A stretch of 64,000 bases of DNA, from positions 4,107,501-4,171,500 of the forward strand of contig CP130629.1 of assembly GCA_030644725.1 (NCBI GenBank), written 5' to 3'. The position numbers were made by a program, and so were the translations under genes. Position 1 is the first letter of the stretch. Each line of letters opens with the position of its first letter. Under the pieces are notes generated by a model. It was not told the origin of the DNA. It saw only the letters and a program-made list of their open reading frames with translations, and did no database searches. The DNA comes from Candidatus Electrothrix communis (lineage in GTDB: Bacteria > Desulfobacterota > Desulfobulbia > Desulfobulbales > Desulfobulbaceae). Shown here piece after piece: positions 26,460 through 37,732 of this stretch.

Positions 26460-27461
26460 TTATGTTTTGGAGATCTTTCTTTTGCTTTGTATGTACTCTT
26501 CTATTGCCTCTTTGGTCGTCATCCAGTCTTTATTATTCATCTTTACTGCTGCCAACCTTCCTTTTCGGGCCAGTAAAGACAAGTATTCTGGAGAGTAATT
26601 ACAATATCTTGCAGCCTCCTTGAGGGTGATGAACATTTTTTCTTCTGTTTGATCTGGTTCTATGCTGTTGAGATATAGAATTAAAGATCGTTCTATTGCT
26701 CTCCCTATAAAATCCTCATAGGGTTCAGACTTGCCAAGGTTTGCCTCATTTAAGACCCTATAATATTTTCTTCTATCGACTTTGAGGATGATGGCAGGAG
26801 GATAGCCATGCTTCATTAAAATGAGGTTCATTAAAAGTCGTGCGACTCGCCCGTTTCCATCGATGAAGGGATGGATCATAACGAGTTTATAGTGTATTTC
26901 CGCTGCTAGTTCAGAGGGAGAGATGGAGTATTCATTTGTATGAAACCATTCTATGAAGTTACTCATGAGGTGAGGAATTTTAAAGGATTGAGGGGGAATG
27001 TGGCGAGCGCCCAGTATTCTGACATTTTGTCTTCGGTAGTGTCCTGCCTCGGAGTCGTCGATAGATTGTAAGATGAGTGAGTGTACTTTCTTTACGGTAT
27101 CCTCTGTGAGGGTTTCTTTTTTTTCTACCAAGGATTTTATGAAGTCGATTCCGTTTTTGTGATTAACGACTTCGAAGTGCTCATTGACAGTTTTGCCGCC
27201 GATGGTAATCCCTGAGTTAAGGACAATTTCGGTTTCCTGGAGGGTGAGGGTATTGCCCTCTATTGCATTTGAATTGTAGGTCCATGCAATAGAAAATTCC
27301 TCTTCGAGTTTTTTTACTATGGCTGGAGGGAGCGGGCGATATGTGTCGAGTGCTCGTTTCTTACCGAGAATGCTTTTGAGGAGATTGTTGTTCATTTTGT
27401 ATCGGCTTTGCTTGAATTCTTGTCTTCCGATACTTTTAACATTCTCTCTTTGGTTTTTCAA
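26460..27461 (-). CDS. Fic-domain protein with built-in inhibitory motif and C-terminal HTH-like domain
   Basis: Up to 333 aa from a TTG at 27461; neither this nor ATG 27395 (MNNNLLKS) has a clear Shine-Dalgarno, so the start is unsure. TYNSNAIEGNTLT carries the S/TxxxE(G/N) motif that blocks ATP binding in class II Fic enzymes, so toxin and antitoxin are in one chain. The active-site loop is VMIHPFIDGNGRVARLLMN, a complete HPFxxGNGR, so AMP transfer should be possible. From residue about 275 (MFITLKEAARYCNYSPEYLS) an excisionase/MerR-like helix-turn-helix ends the protein, suggesting DNA binding or autoregulation. The target is unknown. Confidence 0.9.
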   Translation of the reverse strand: MKNQRENVKSIGRQEFKQSRYKMNNNLLKSILGKKRALDTYRPLPPAIVKKLEEEFSIAWTYNSNAIEGNTLTLQETEIVLNSGITIGGKTVNEHFEVVNHKNGIDFIKSLVEKKETLTEDTVKKVHSLILQSIDDSEAGHYRRQNVRILGARHIPPQSFKIPHLMSNFIEWFHTNEYSISPSELAAEIHYKLVMIHPFIDGNGRVARLLMNLILMKHGYPPAIILKVDRRKYYRVLNEANLGKSEPYEDFIGRAIERSLILYLNSIEPDQTEEKMFITLKEAARYCNYSPEYLSLLARKGRLAAVKMNNKDWMTTKEAIEEYIQSKRKISKT

Positions 27462-28898: not shown

Positions 28899-29963
28899 CT
28901 AGCTTTGAGTTTTCACAAGCCCCTCATCGTAATCTGTAAGATGAAAAAACCTATCTGGGAAATAATCTGTTATAAATCCATTTTTGTTTGATTTCTTTAC
29001 TTGAAGCATCCAGTCGATTCCGTAAATAAAGTTTATAAACCCTCGGTAGGAATCTATTAGGTATATTTTATCTTGGATCTTCGCAGTTTTGTAAGTGAGC
29101 GGATCAAGAGAAATATCATCTCCTTCAAGCGCAACCACCCTTACCTTGTTCTTGCTATCAATCAAATTCTTACCTTCAAAATATGAATCATCTCGAAATG
29201 TATTGTCGCCGAAATCAAAAATCGCAACTGTATCCTTGTCGGTGTTTATAGTAACTTGGCTTCTTGGATTTTCTTCAAGATTAACTAAGCAGACATGAAG
29301 TTTTCCACTTGTTGTTCTAGTATGGGCAATATCGTCATGTCTAAAGAATATAGAATGCTCAAGTGAGAACAGCAAATCGGGTTGCATGCTTACATCAAGT
29401 TTTTCAATTTCTTCTTTGATTAGATTGAACGTATCATCAAGGTTAAATGCTGTTTTCCTTTGAGGCGTTGTATAGAAGAATATGCAAGACAAAGGCGGGC
29501 TAGGCTTACATTTGGTTAAAGACCATGTTTGATGTTGCTCATCTTCTATTTTGCTTGTAGGCTCTACCCAGTTTAATTGAGAAGGATGAAGCTTTTTTAT
29601 GCTGTTCGTATTTTCAATAGCTTCTAATAAACTAGTTTTCGTAAAAGTGGTTTTGATCTCAATAGTAGCAAGAACCTGATCGACAAGAAATATTTTACTC
29701 TCACTGCTAAGTGTATAGTTTGGTATACTTTTGTCGTAAATGATAATATCAACTTGTTTTGACTCATTTCCTTGGGTATCAACAATGAGACCAGAACCCA
29801 CCCCATATGCTGGCGGAAGGAATTCAATTAATAGCTTTTTTATTTCCGCCTCATTCTCCTCTCCTTTCGTTAATGAATGCCCGATACTGTGGTTGATATA
29901 GTCAAAGCGGGATTTTAGGATCGAATAAATGCCGCGCAAATGTCGGTGTAGGTCGCTTTTCAT
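28899..29963 (-). CDS. DUF6602-like protein, possible PD-(D/E)XK-type nuclease fold
   Basis: 354 aa. The N-terminal half has the arrangement GEENEAEIKKLLIEFLPPAY, VGSGLIVDTQGNESKQVDII, IYDK and QVLATIEIKTTF, i.e. a Glu helix, an Asp on a beta strand and an ExK strand, as in restriction-like nucleases and in DUF6602 proteins of accessory regions. The C-terminal half is unassigned. It lies in a string of unrelated accessory genes and directly beside a large palindromic element, consistent with a mobile or defence origin. Biochemical activity is inference. Confidence 0.65.
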   Translation of the reverse strand: MKSDLHRHLRGIYSILKSRFDYINHSIGHSLTKGEENEAEIKKLLIEFLPPAYGVGSGLIVDTQGNESKQVDIIIYDKSIPNYTLSSESKIFLVDQVLATIEIKTTFTKTSLLEAIENTNSIKKLHPSQLNWVEPTSKIEDEQHQTWSLTKCKPSPPLSCIFFYTTPQRKTAFNLDDTFNLIKEEIEKLDVSMQPDLLFSLEHSIFFRHDDIAHTRTTSGKLHVCLVNLEENPRSQVTINTDKDTVAIFDFGDNTFRDDSYFEGKNLIDSKNKVRVVALEGDDISLDPLTYKTAKIQDKIYLIDSYRGFINFIYGIDWMLQVKKSNKNGFITDYFPDRFFHLTDYDEGLVKTQS

Positions 29964-30019: not shown

Positions 30020-30240
30020 TGGGCGCGGCTTAACGGGCGCTGTTGAGCCGCGAGACTCGCAGGCACAGAAGAGAAAGTGCTGTTTTTTCTTTTCCGTGCC
30101 GAGAATCGCAGTCGGTTCCAACGTGTTGGATAGGTGGAGCGCGTAGCGCGTAACCTGTTCAACTCGTTGGAGGAACTCGACAGCGCCCGATAGGATGGAC
30201 CGCTGAAAGTGAGCTTGCGAGCGGAGCGGTCCATCCTATC
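30020..30240. repeat. Complex multi-stem palindromic element, unidentified
   Basis: A long-range stem pairs 30034-30047 (CGGGCGCTGTTGAG) with 30176-30189 (CTCGACAGCGCCCG), one mismatch in 14. The ~130 bases between contain further hairpins, including GGCAC...GTGCC around an AGAGAAA/TTTTCTTTT stem and CCAACGTGTTGG. Directly abutting is a perfect 16-bp inverted repeat, 30189-30204 with 30225-30240. No ORF is credible here. It resembles a structured RNA, a recombination site or a MITE; no known class could be assigned. Confidence 0.55.
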
Positions 30241-30323
30241 AGTATTAATAAGTGGAAACTTTCCATGCTATTGACAGTAATAGGTTTAAATTTCAACCTA
30301 GTACGAAATATCAGGGCAACACA

Positions 30324-30440
30324 CTCAAATCCTCCCCCCCCCCCGCACCAAATTCTCATAACTCTCCCGCTGGCGGATAACCTGAACCTGATCACCATCA
30401 ACCAAAACCTCAGCCACCTTGGGCTGGGAGTTATAGATGG
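30324..30440 (-). pseudogene. Displaced, diverged copy of the lysA 3' end
   Basis: On the minus strand this stretch encodes YNSQPKVAEVLVDGDQ followed by VQVIRQRESYENLVRG, matching the last residues of the intact LysA (YNSRPKVPEILVNGDQ and FRVIRERESYEDLVRG). A C-run of about a dozen at 30333-30344 disrupts what follows. The DNA is roughly three-quarters identical to 31600-31715 by eye. It lies on the far side of the DUF1016 gene, so that gene is bracketed by the true and the relic lysA ends. Confidence 0.8.
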
Positions 30441-30471
30441 GAGAATTTCTCTGTTCAATTAACAATTTTCC

Positions 30472-31566
30472 CTACACTTCACCTTTTAATTCCGCCTCAA
30501 TTTCCTCAATACTCGGAAGACTGTCTTTCAAATTATCAGGCAGGGTTTCAGTAAGCTGCGTTTCCCATTGCGCCACACCCATAGGTTTGTTGAGGCCACG
30601 CAGAGCATATTCTACCACCAGTTCGTTTTTACTCTTGCACAGCAGCAAACCTATTGTCGGTTTATCATCTGGATGCCGCATCAGATCATCAACTGCGGAC
30701 AGGTACAGATTCAGTTGGCCAGTAAAGCCGGGCTCAAAAGGTACAGCCTTTAATTCCACCACAACAAAACAACGCAGCTTGAGGTGGTAAAAAAGTAGAT
30801 CAAGGCGAAAATCCTGATCTCCGACCTCCAGCAGCATCTGACGACCGACAAAGGCGAACCCGGACCCCATTTCCAGGAGAAACTCCTGCACATGATCCAT
30901 TAAGGCCTGCTCGACCTCGCGTTCTTTTCTGAGGTTGGCAGTGCCGAGAAAATCAAACAGATAAGGATCCTTAAATATTTGGGTCGCCATGTCGGAATCA
31001 GGCGGCGGAAGGGTGGCAGCAAAGTTGTTTACAATCTGCCCTTGACGCTCATGCAAACGGCTTTCGATCTGCATGACCAGAATGTTTCGGCTCCACCCGT
31101 TTTCCACGATTTTTTGGGCATACCACAGGCGTGTTTCCACATCATCCAGCTTTTCAAGCAGAGCTAAATTATGATACCAAGGAATTTGTGCAAGCACCTC
31201 TTGCACAATTGTTTGATCCGGCCACGTCTCGGCAAATTTTCGCATGTACTTGAGGTTGCGCGGCGAAAATCCGCTCATTTCCGGAAAGCTGTGCTTGAGG
31301 TCAAAGGAAAGACGATCAATGATTTTGGCACCCCAGCCTTGCTGCTGCTGTCGCTCTACAATGATTTTTCCTATATCCCAGTAGAGAAGAACCAGAGCTG
31401 AATTGGCCGCCAAGGTGATGCGCAGGCGTTCAGACTGAATTCGCTTCTTGAGTTCTTTCAGTACGGAAGCATAATCATTCGGGAGCATATTTTTCCCCAC
31501 AGACGTGGGGAACGCTGCATCGGATCGGCTGATCTTTTTTATCCCTTTGGTATTGTTCTTCTTCAC
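30472..31566 (-). CDS. DUF1016/YhcG-type PD-(D/E)XK nuclease
   Basis: 364 aa from a GTG at 31566, only 24 bp after the lysA stop. N-terminal DUF1016_N domain: LYWDIGKIIVERQQQQGWGA, LKHSFPEMSGFSPRNLKYMR, IPWYHNLALLEKLDD. C-terminal nuclease core: DFRLDLLFYHLKLRCFVVVE followed by LK, the D...ExK catalytic pattern, then GQLNLYLSAVDDLMRHPDDK and PTIGLLLCKSKNELVVEYAL. Family members occur as solitary genes in islands and as restriction-modification accessories. Flanking by two lysA 3' ends suggests it arrived as a small unit. Confidence 0.9.
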   Translation of the reverse strand: MKKNNTKGIKKISRSDAAFPTSVGKNMLPNDYASVLKELKKRIQSERLRITLAANSALVLLYWDIGKIIVERQQQQGWGAKIIDRLSFDLKHSFPEMSGFSPRNLKYMRKFAETWPDQTIVQEVLAQIPWYHNLALLEKLDDVETRLWYAQKIVENGWSRNILVMQIESRLHERQGQIVNNFAATLPPPDSDMATQIFKDPYLFDFLGTANLRKEREVEQALMDHVQEFLLEMGSGFAFVGRQMLLEVGDQDFRLDLLFYHLKLRCFVVVELKAVPFEPGFTGQLNLYLSAVDDLMRHPDDKPTIGLLLCKSKNELVVEYALRGLNKPMGVAQWETQLTETLPDNLKDSLPSIEEIEAELKGEV

Positions 31567-31590
31567 TCTCTTGACCTGTTGGCTCTGTAA

Positions 31591-32862
31591 TCAGCCCGGC
31601 TCATGCAAATCCTCCCCCCGCACCAGATCCTCATAGCTTTCTCGCTCTCGGATAACCCGGAATTGATCACCATTGACCAAAATTTCAGGAACCTTAGGCC
31701 GAGAATTATAGGTGGACGCCATAGAGAAACCATAAGCACCGCAGCTCATCACCGCCAGCAGCTCGCCCGGTTGCACCGCTGGCATCATACGGTCTTTGGC
31801 CATGAAATCGCCGGTCTCGCAGATGGGGCCGACTACATCAACCTCCTGCATTTGCTCGTTCTCGGCAGGTTCTTTCACCGGGAGGATCTCGTGATAAGCG
31901 CTGTACAGAGAGGGACGGGCAAGATCGTTCATGGCAGCATCTGCAATGACAAAGCGCTTTTCCTTTTCTCCGCCGGTATTGACCTTGGTATACTGGACTT
32001 CGGTGACCAGAATGCCCGCGTTGCCGGTGATGACTCGGCCCGGCTCCAGGATCAGGGTGCAGTCCACATCACCAAGCTCCGCACGAATGGCCGAGGCATA
32101 ATCCATCGGATGGGGAGGCTGTTCATCATCATAGACGATACCAACTCCACCGCCCAGATCAAGATATTGAATGCCGATGCCCTCCTGTTCCAGCCCGATC
32201 ACAAATTTCTTCACCTTGCGCAGGGCCTCGATAAAGGGCTCAATCTGGGTCAGCTGCGAACCGATATGGCAGCTCACGCCGACGATCTCGATATGTTCCA
32301 TTTCCTTGGCCCGCAGATATTCCTGCAACGCCTCATCCACCGGGATACCGAATTTGTTTTTCGCCAGACCCGTGGAGATATAGGCATGAGTCTTCGGATC
32401 CACATCCGGGTTGATACGAAAGGCGATCCGGGCTGTGATTTTCATCTCCGCTGCAATCTCCTGAATTCGATCCAGCTCTTGCGGAGATTCCACATTGAAC
32501 ATCAGGATACCGGCCTCCAGGGCCTCGCGTATTTCTGTTCGGGTCTTGCCCGCGCCGGAGTAGATGATTTTTTGCGGATCTACACCCGCCTTCATAGCCC
32601 GGAACAGTTCGCCGCCAGAAACAATATCGGCTCCACCGCCCATCTTGGCGAAAATATTGAGGATAGAGAGGTTAGAACATGCCTTGACTGCAAAACAGGT
32701 CTGATGTTGCATTCCGGTAAAACCGGAGTCAAAGGCATCGAAATGACGTTGCAGGGTGGCTGTGCTGTAGAGATAAAAGGGGGTGCCGACTTCTTTGGCA
32801 ATGTCCTGGACAGGCTTGTCCTCACAGTGAAGGATGCCGTTTTTATAGGTGAAATGATTCAT
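31591..32862 (-). CDS. lysA: Diaminopimelate decarboxylase
   Basis: 423 aa, full length. PLP enzyme that decarboxylates meso-diaminopimelate to L-lysine. The PLP lysine lies in CFAVKACSN, the phosphate-binding glycines in LDLGGGVGI, and the second-subunit residues in GPICETGDFMAKD and CGAYGFSMASTYNSRPKVPE. GLAKNKFGIP and SCHIGSQLT are further family marks. It stands downstream of the FN3 lipoprotein and argH on the same strand, separated by 231 bp with a palindrome. Its 3' end has been duplicated 1.2 kb further on. Confidence 0.97.
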   Translation of the reverse strand: MNHFTYKNGILHCEDKPVQDIAKEVGTPFYLYSTATLQRHFDAFDSGFTGMQHQTCFAVKACSNLSILNIFAKMGGGADIVSGGELFRAMKAGVDPQKIIYSGAGKTRTEIREALEAGILMFNVESPQELDRIQEIAAEMKITARIAFRINPDVDPKTHAYISTGLAKNKFGIPVDEALQEYLRAKEMEHIEIVGVSCHIGSQLTQIEPFIEALRKVKKFVIGLEQEGIGIQYLDLGGGVGIVYDDEQPPHPMDYASAIRAELGDVDCTLILEPGRVITGNAGILVTEVQYTKVNTGGEKEKRFVIADAAMNDLARPSLYSAYHEILPVKEPAENEQMQEVDVVGPICETGDFMAKDRMMPAVQPGELLAVMSCGAYGFSMASTYNSRPKVPEILVNGDQFRVIRERESYEDLVRGEDLHEPG

Positions 32863-36010: not shown

Positions 36011-37732
36011 TCATTTGTTCTTGAAAGTGCTAAATGACAGCGCAACCTCCGTCGCCTCAATCTCACTGCCGTCAGTCAGCAGCAGATAAGCCCTGAGCTT
36101 GTCCAGACAGCGCACATCCTCCAGCTCCAGATACTCCTGCACCTGCCTGGTACCTTCTTCCTTTTTTTGCTCCCATCCCTTTTTTCCGTCCTTTTTCTTA
36201 CAAAATTTCAACTCAAAGAGAAACTGATTCGGCACTTCAAAGGGACTGCGTTCCAGGAGGAGAATATCCGGGTAGCGATTATTCACCTCTGCCTCACTGC
36301 GGATAAAGTATATCTCAGATTGATACAACAGAGTCAGAATAACCGCCTTGATATGCTTTTCATCCATCCGCATGAAATCACGATTGGAAAATAGGGCAAG
36401 GATTTTGCTGATTTCTTCGGTCAGCGGAGCAATGTTGTTATGCAAGGCCAGCTGACGCACTGCCTCCGCGAGCAGGCGCGAATCCAGATTAATCTGTGCC
36501 CGCTGTTCAATCTCTTTTTTAAAGTATTGAAAATATAAACGAGAAATAACATGATTGGGCACATTATAGCGCAGCTGATCAAGCACTCTGCCGCTGATGG
36601 TGATAAAGCCCATGTAGAGCAGCAAGCTGATAAAGTCATCCCGCTCAAAAGGTTTGTTCACGTCTGGGTCAAGTTTGTGCTTATGTTGTCCGATAATCTG
36701 TCCATTGACGATCAGTTCCTCCAGAGTGCGGAAGTTAGCCTCCGGGTCGCCGATCGAAAACAACTGCATGATTTTTCCGTAGTCGGAGGCAATATTGCCG
36801 TCCAGCATCTGCTCAGGTGGGGTACACGGTGCTGTCTGATAGTTTCTGATAAAATAGAGCACCATATCTGGATTGAAGACTTTTTCTTCGGCCCGGCTAC
36901 TAAACTTATAACCGTTATACCAGCTACCGAGTGTTTCCAGCAGTTTCTGTCCATCAAGATCACATTTCGAAACCAGAGGTTGGATCATATCAGCAGTTTC
37001 CTGGTGGGTAAATCCCATAGCCTCATTAAAATCAGGGAGGAAGGTAAGATTGTCCCCGATATTAAATCCACTGGTCATGCTGTCTAGGGTGATGGAGGTT
37101 ACGCCGGTGATAAAAAGACGATCAACAATACCCCGTCCTGTTGCAATTTTTATAGTCTCGTAAAATGCACGAACAAATCCTCCTTTGCCCACGATCCGGG
37201 TGAAGAGTTCCAAGCTGTCGCCGAGAATAGCGTTGGCAAAATGATCATACTCGTCAATGAGCAGATAGAGCTTTTGTCCGCTACACACTCGGAACAGACT
37301 GTCTATTTTTTCCTGCGGGCTTTCCTTGGTCCTGATTTCCTCGGCAGCGTCTTGGCCGTAATTATACTGCTCAAGAAAGGCGAGCAGGCAGTTTTCGACC
37401 CGGCTGGTGAAATTACGTCTTATGGTATCGGCGTCATCGGTAGCAATTCCGCTGAAGTTAAAGGCAAGTACTTGATAGCTGTTGCGCAGCGGAGTAGGAT
37501 TTTCTCCTGCGGATAATCCTCTGAATAATGCCTCAAACTCATCCTTACAGTGAATGTCGTAGTAGTACTGAAGTGCAGAGAGAAACAAGCTTTTCCCAAA
37601 ACGGCGAGGACGAAGCAGGATGTTGAAGCTGCCCTGCTCCTCCAGCTCTTGTATATACTGGGTTTTATCTATATACAGATAATTCCCGGTTCTGATCTTC
37701 CTGAAATCGCTCTCGCCGTAAGGAATCTTCAT
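36011..37732 (-). CDS. AAA-ATPase-like protein with C-terminal PD-(D/E)XK nuclease domain
   Basis: 573 aa. N-terminus has the AAA-ATPase_like (PF09820) signature: YGESDFRKIRTGNYLYIDKT, then FNILLRPRRFGKSLFLSAL as a variant Walker A, KLYLLIDEYDHFANAIL as Walker B, and LFITGVTSITLDSMTSGFNI. The C-terminal part (EVNNRYPDILLLERSPFEVP, FLFELKFCKKKDGK) carries D...ExK nuclease residues. The family is highly multiplied in genomes of gliding and filamentous bacteria and is thought to spread as a solo mobile-like gene. It begins 33 bp after argG, splitting argG from argH. Confidence 0.9.
   Translation of the reverse strand: MKIPYGESDFRKIRTGNYLYIDKTQYIQELEEQGSFNILLRPRRFGKSLFLSALQYYYDIHCKDEFEALFRGLSAGENPTPLRNSYQVLAFNFSGIATDDADTIRRNFTSRVENCLLAFLEQYNYGQDAAEEIRTKESPQEKIDSLFRVCSGQKLYLLIDEYDHFANAILGDSLELFTRIVGKGGFVRAFYETIKIATGRGIVDRLFITGVTSITLDSMTSGFNIGDNLTFLPDFNEAMGFTHQETADMIQPLVSKCDLDGQKLLETLGSWYNGYKFSSRAEEKVFNPDMVLYFIRNYQTAPCTPPEQMLDGNIASDYGKIMQLFSIGDPEANFRTLEELIVNGQIIGQHKHKLDPDVNKPFERDDFISLLLYMGFITISGRVLDQLRYNVPNHVISRLYFQYFKKEIEQRAQINLDSRLLAEAVRQLALHNNIAPLTEEISKILALFSNRDFMRMDEKHIKAVILTLLYQSEIYFIRSEAEVNNRYPDILLLERSPFEVPNQFLFELKFCKKKDGKKGWEQKKEEGTRQVQEYLELEDVRCLDKLRAYLLLTDGSEIEATEVALSFSTFKNK

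Follow-up and report, generated by a model that had tools for sequence, protein, structure and literature searches.

A predicted DUF1016/YhcG nuclease gene between the intact lysA 3′ end and a diverged relic of such an end in Candidatus Electrothrix communis

Several described systems place a nuclease or defence gene next to a doubled or borrowed piece of a host gene. Restriction-modification genes can be inserted with long target duplications (Nobusato et al. 2000, as cited in PMC3031569 and PMC1643837). In fungal mitochondria, mobile endonuclease ORFs bring in a gene 3′ end of foreign origin, which displaces the native one, and the account in PMC3630166 covers Allomyces atp6 and Glomus atp6, atp9, cox2 and nad3. 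Defence genes are also found embedded in the operons of other defence systems (Payne et al., preprint 2024, as cited in PMC12255303). Homology-facilitated illegitimate recombination is a further described process (PMC3240628); a homologous joint and an illegitimate one could leave a hybrid gene, the cargo and then the native gene end. As for the cargo considered here, the YhcG family is assigned to the PD-(D/E)XK nucleases with DNA cleavage predicted, and one YhcG gene is reported within a type I restriction cluster, that of Methanosarcina acetivorans (PMC1189080). The titles and abstract openings that we found in the open literature on DUF1016, the YhcG nuclease, COG4804 and PDC-S02 mention no repeats of the kind reported below.

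The lysA locus

The window is a stretch of 64,000 nucleotides from the genome of Candidatus Electrothrix communis (G000), which is a single contig of 4.85 Mb. On its minus strand, lysA is followed after 24 bp by a DUF1016/YhcG gene and, after another 31 bp, by a relic of a lysA end. The features are listed with their window coordinates.

31591..32862, minus strand: lysA, intact diaminopimelate decarboxylase gene (TIGR01048, 517 bits, cut-off 298; ORF of 423 aa)
31590..31715, minus strand: lysA 3′ end, upstream copy of the repeat (131 columns, 74% against 30310-30440)
31567..31590, minus strand: 24-bp spacer from the lysA stop to the DUF1016 start, containing CAGAGCCAACAGGTCAAGA (from the printed sequences)
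30472..31566, minus strand: DUF1016/YhcG gene for a predicted nuclease of 364 aa, GTG start (PF17761, PF06250; PADLOC PDC-S02)
30441..30471, minus strand: 31-bp spacer from the DUF1016 stop to the relic, similar in G005 and G003 (the match runs on over query positions 141-181)
30310..30440, minus strand: diverged, frame-shifted relic of a lysA 3′ end (direct repeat of 31590-31715)
30240..30309, minus strand: dispersed-repeat stretch directly behind the relic, ending in CTTATTAATACTG (other copies in the G000 genome; right end common to the G005 and G003 units)

The direct repeat covers 131 columns at 74% identity (E = 2e-22), and a whole-genome search returns the lysA-end repeat as 105 bp at 78% (E = 1.3e-17). 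Read as protein, the relic matches the LysA C-terminus over 32 to 34 residues (71-75%), with its frame shifted by a run of 11 G in place of 6. Each copy stops just behind its stop codon. The first-pass annotation had described a diverged lysA 3′ copy at 30324-30440, on the same strand and downstream of a DUF1016 gene that starts 24 bp after the intact lysA stop. The repeat and the spacer at 31567-31590 bear this out, as does the boundary at 30440; the far limit of the relic lies at 30310, about 14 bp beyond 30324.

The DUF1016 product scores 154 bits with DUF1016_N (PF17761, cut-off 32.8) and 216 bits with YhcG_C (PF06250, cut-off 32.5), and it matches the profile of the PADLOC phage-defence candidate PDC-S02 (E = 1.1e-152). 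Inspection of the translation by eye reveals an E-D-E(I/L/V)K motif (FRLDLLFYH ... VVVELK) such as PMC1189080 describes for YhcG. A search of solved structures yields no relative up to E = 1. Judged by its sequence, the protein is a member of the DUF1016/YhcG PD-(D/E)XK family and a predicted nuclease, and it may aid entry by cutting. It is encoded by the sole gene between the repeat copies; neither the ORFs nor a domain search contains a recombinase gene there. A site-specific integrative element with its attachment site in a gene 3′ end was rejected because of this absence.

The arrangement shares features with each of the described systems. Like the restriction-modification insertions outlined in the citing papers, it has a restriction-like nuclease cargo between long direct repeats and leaves the flanking gene whole. 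Unlike them, it involves a lone nuclease with no methyltransferase between the repeats, and the copies are well diverged. Furthermore, the repeated stretch is the 3′-terminal part of a gene as far as its stop codon, and the cargo occurs elsewhere together with one copy. As in the fungal mitochondrial cases covered by PMC3630166, a gene is followed by an endonuclease ORF (here by domain only) and then by a second 3′ end that has diverged from the first. In the fungi, however, the insertion brings a foreign end and displaces the native one, whereas at lysA the displaced end is the odd one, so the roles appear exchanged. The nuclease family is also a different one, and cutting by DUF1016 is predicted only. 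Embedded defence genes, as presented in PMC12255303, resemble other DUF1016 genes that lie between hsdM and hsdS (on two plasmids and at locus L099). The lysA case differs in that the neighbour is biosynthetic and its remnant accompanies the nuclease gene. The supposition that such an insertion was undescribed is therefore narrowed, since both restriction genes with long duplicated targets and mobile mitochondrial ORFs that carry a gene end have been published (PMC3031569, PMC1643837, PMC3630166).

Beyond the relic, a DUF6602 gene (28899-29963, minus) matches PADLOC PD-(D/E)XK and NucC-type nuclease profiles (E = 1e-34 to 1e-17), and nuclease-type genes thus flank the relic on both sides. A Fic-domain gene (26460-27461, minus), which appeared among the controls of the survey below, has a 52-bp direct repeat (77%) on both sides. 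Between argG and argH lies a gene of 573 aa (36011-37732, minus), and argG and argH are adjacent without it in G005. We take its product to be AAA-ATPase-like; it matches no PADLOC or NCBIfam profile. This gene was considered as a second case and rejected, as its best flank match is 15 columns long and was taken as chance.

DUF1016 and lysA relics in the genus

The genus comparison comprises G000 and seven other genomes, one of which (G006, 69% complete) lacks a readable lysA end. Five of the eight carry a DUF1016 gene that is 93-100% like that of the window in protein. The gene occupies three sites: behind lysA in G000, at site X in G003 and G001, and at site Y in G005 and G007. Site X lies behind a presumably flavodoxin-like gene and site Y between what we take to be a membrane-protein gene and a tex-like gene. 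DNA identities among the five copies are 93-97% over the ten pairs, with 96.5% for the pair at X, 96.7% for the pair at Y and 93-95% for the other eight. The copies thus pair by site, indicating that each site was filled before its two species parted, or that the copies were exchanged between them.

A lysA relic is present behind DUF1016 in G000, G003 and G005. By coordinate, it lies about 147 kb from the intact lysA in G003 and about 940 kb in G005. No relic is found within 700 bp behind DUF1016 in G007, and none matches in the 76 bp behind the gene in G001, where the contig ends. Site Y is without DUF1016 in G003, G004 and G001, as is the gene to the left of site X in G000 and G005. The left sequence CAGAGCCAACAGGTCAAGA is common to the DUF1016 copies at all three sites, with one base differing at site X. 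The right end CTTATTAATACTG, part of a dispersed repeat, is common to the three relic-bearing units, and the sequences differ behind it. There is no recombinase gene between these shared ends. DUF1016 and the lysA relic thus form a unit that recurs at three sites. At site Y in G005 (L058:8580-13044), about 4.4 kb separate two otherwise adjacent genes and hold DUF1016, the lysA relic, a 248-aa ORF and a further gene, which to us reads like a cytosine-C5 DNA methyltransferase.

The lysA ends of six congeners are readable, and each is a single copy with no second one beside lysA. This agrees with the earlier proposal of an insertion that left lysA whole and doubled its 3′ end. Relatives with a relic and no nuclease gene had been named as the sign of an old tandem duplication; none occurs among the seven other genomes, in which both extra copies stand behind DUF1016. 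Only one of the seven readable lysA ends in the genus is occupied.

Along one stretch around argH, the genome nearest to G000 is G004 (90.1%), followed by G003 (86.5%), G007 (83.7%), G005 (83.4%), G001 (82.1%) and G002 (81.7%). The intact lysA end conforms to these relations, with 94.9% identity to G004 over 99 bp. The relic does not: over the same 99 bp it is 88.9% identical to the lysA end of G005, 87.9% to G002, 85.9% to G007, 83.8% to G003, 82.8% to G004 and 77.8% each to that of G001 and to its own lysA. It is nearer to the lysA of five congeners than to its own and hence no decayed recent copy of the resident end. At 11 diagnostic sites, at which G000 and G004 share a base that four or more of the five others lack, the G000 relic has the G000/G004 state at two and the G005 relic at six, all in its second half; the G003 relic, which has a deletion, was left out of this scoring. 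By eye, the bases behind the relic stop are like those behind lysA in G001 and unlike those in G003 or G004. The bases behind the intact lysA stop are common to G002 (62 bp, 94%), where a search of the genus genomes found no DUF1016; they might mark a former host or an ancestral ending.

The relic, and not the working end, looks foreign or older. The first-pass annotation had one of the two copies coming from another species. The closeness of the relic to five congeners over 99 bp is consistent with that part of the claim, but the end at odds with the species relations is the relic, not the supposedly restored one, and import of the working end is therefore not required. The relic may have been imported with the unit, or it may be older than the present G000/G004 end, an age order that would be based on 99 bp.

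Survey of DUF1016 loci

The survey started from 198 sequences, which gave 172 full-length DUF1016 ORFs, 162 of them with flanks and 153 after removal of near-duplicates. The sources are 65 loci from public genomes, 100 regions from a match list of 395 phylum genomes, relatives from the family, and the genus. Since the 100 regions were chosen best-first from that list, with some contig-edge or already covered ones omitted, the locus set is no random draw. Frame-shifted and cut loci were excluded; at one of these, L143, a stretch of 142 bp (73%) repeats the end of a WYL-domain gene on its 3′ side.

A locus counted as bracketed if copies of a direct repeat lay no more than 450 bp away on each side, with 305 neighbouring genes as controls. 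Such repeats occur at 23 of the 153 DUF1016 loci (15%) versus 13 of the 305 controls (4%, p = 9e-5), and at 22 of 152 loci with the window case left out (p = 2e-4). By eye, the repeat is the 3′ end of the upstream gene at 8 of the 153 loci and at most 1 of the 305 controls (p = 9e-4). These eight, named by Pfam for L099, L198, L095 and L115 and by the last residues for L097, L106 and L080, are as follows.

lysA: window
hsdM-type genes: L099, L097, L106, L080
ABC exporter gene: L198
hsdS: L095
IrrE/HTH gene: L115

The copies end at the stop codon, or at most 4 bases from it, in the lysA, hsdM-type, hsdS and ABC-exporter genes; the repeat at L115 spans two genes. Of the other 15 repeats, some lie in non-coding DNA, some are the start of the following gene and some are plain repeats. 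L084 and L247 are of the second sort: what is doubled there is the 5′ end of the gene after DUF1016, while the upstream gene's 3′ end is not involved. Some of the 23 are plainly of another kind: the repeat at L118 occurs in inverted form as well, that at L076 resembles a terminator, and that at L086 is repetitive coding sequence. Identity between the copies ranges from 61 to 95% across the 23 loci, and no pair is identical.

Bracketing repeats are absent from 130 of the 153 loci. On plasmids they are found at none of 20 DUF1016 loci (about 3 expected, p = 0.04), taken from the 40 listed among 480 matching records, and at none of 30 plasmid controls. On two plasmids DUF1016 lies between hsdM and hsdS, overlaps each of them by ATGA and has no relic. 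A protein-only test is positive for 5 of 131 DUF1016 loci versus 1 of 227 controls (p = 0.026), the one control resembling a CRISPR array. Among 655 crossed pairs, two match in this test, and one of these is the window lysA end against the G005 relic. DUF1016 matches are present in 15 phage records, and one query, a piece from a phage record, has no match in E. coli strains.

Between the two ABC-exporter ends there are 17 synonymous and 3 nonsynonymous changes, a pattern that suits two orthologous ends that both once functioned better than it suits a decaying duplicate. A synonymous bias is clear at this gene only; the other pairs are mixed (lysA 13/9, hsdS 8/6, L115 5/6, L106 9/20). A congener (G128) of the ABC-exporter genome (G470) has a single end, to which the intact end (324 columns) and the relic (160 columns) are both 83-84% alike, as estimated from alignment scores.

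Of 57 genomes searched, three, that of the window among them, have a short copy of the lysA C-terminus away from the gene itself, in each case beside DUF1016. Further C-terminal pieces in G031, G041, G004 and G025 are, we assume, lysA genes divided between contigs or reading frames. The idea of a general hot spot at lysA was rejected, as the short copies are confined to these three genomes, each with the same cargo. The suggestion that lysA 3′ ends form a special insertion site is therefore not supported: one of the seven readable ends in the genus is occupied, similar anatomy exists at other genes, and lysA is not special as a target.

Origin of the doubled end

We consider it probable, with some reserve, that DUF1016 is mobile cargo that entered behind the lysA stop, doubled the lysA end and then travelled with the relic as a unit. 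A horizontally moving DUF1016 gene would have entered directly behind the stop codon, leaving lysA whole and its last 105-131 bp present once more on the downstream side of the cargo. The two would afterwards have reached at least two more chromosomal sites in the genus as one unit. The mechanism at lysA is an unproven proposal. The initial step may have been one-sided recombination of foreign DNA, with a homologous joint in lysA and an illegitimate joint at the other end, or else an insertion with a long target duplication; later moves could have used recombination in the flanking dispersed repeats. Ends created by one homologous and one illegitimate joint would be diverged at birth, whereas a long target duplication would make them identical. 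That none of the 23 pairs is identical favours the joints, weakly, because old insertions would look alike.

A target duplication confined to one genome, in which the lysA 3′ end was copied at insertion and the downstream copy then decayed, is possible though doubtful. It would explain a direct repeat as long as 131 bp around a nuclease cargo and the single copy at the other lysA ends of the genus, and it has precedent in the restriction-modification genes as related in PMC3031569 and PMC1643837. Repeats that span two genes (L115) or cover the 5′ end of the next gene (L084, L247) are likewise what plain duplication would leave. It conflicts with the relic being closer over 99 bp to five congeners' lysA ends than to its own, and with the range of 61-95% among the 23 pairs, where a recent duplication should be identical. 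The domain itself invites another reading, a homing-type spread in which the nuclease cuts alleles without the insert near the gene 3′ end and repair copies in both nuclease and gene end. The PD-(D/E)XK assignment (PMC1189080) suits it, as do repeats whose ends coincide with, or fall no more than 4 bases from, the stop codons of the lysA, hsdM-type, hsdS and ABC-exporter genes, the gene-end copy being carried along. We nevertheless regard it as distinctly improbable: the native copy is the displaced one in the fungal cases that PMC3630166 presents, while at lysA the relic is the odd one out, and the targets vary between loci, which is ill-suited to one cutting site. Lastly, the lysA 3′ end might have been duplicated in tandem long ago and DUF1016 might have landed by chance between the copies at a later time, which would account for their divergence. 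This is disfavoured, to the point of being very hard to credit, by the single lysA ends in six congeners and by the extra copies of G003 and G005, which stand behind orthologous DUF1016 genes some 147 and 940 kb from lysA.

On the preferred reading of DUF1016 as mobile cargo, the gene with its relic looks like a small travelling cassette that holds a piece of a former neighbour. It bears on how single defence-type genes without an integrase or transposase come to lie behind host genes and pass between species, a matter little explained to our knowledge. By keeping the 3′ end of the gene it once adjoined, such a cassette leaves a record from which its moves can be traced, and relics of gene 3′ ends could mark the past hosts of this cargo. 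With the excess of bracketing repeats around DUF1016 genes, the question becomes testable through occupied versus empty strains. A much broader conjecture, to which we give little credence, is that the DUF1016/YhcG genes include a class of prokaryotic selfish genes that enter directly behind stop codons, bring with them a copy of the neighbour's 3′ end as a built-in landing sequence and, with no integrase, spread between species by way of that gene, with lysA, hsdM, hsdS and the ABC exporter gene as landing genes.

We note further arrangements among the surveyed sequences. A Schlafen/AlbA_2 gene that served as a control (L186:7027-8217) has an 82-bp direct repeat (83%) on both sides. To us the repeat reads like an hsdS 3′ end, in a stretch with no ORF of at least 80 aa, and the locus is perhaps the same anatomy with other cargo. 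At L227 (G056, contig 131), three YhcG_C matches follow in a row, and the sequences that follow two of these resemble each other (189 bp, 78%), in the manner of tandem cassettes.
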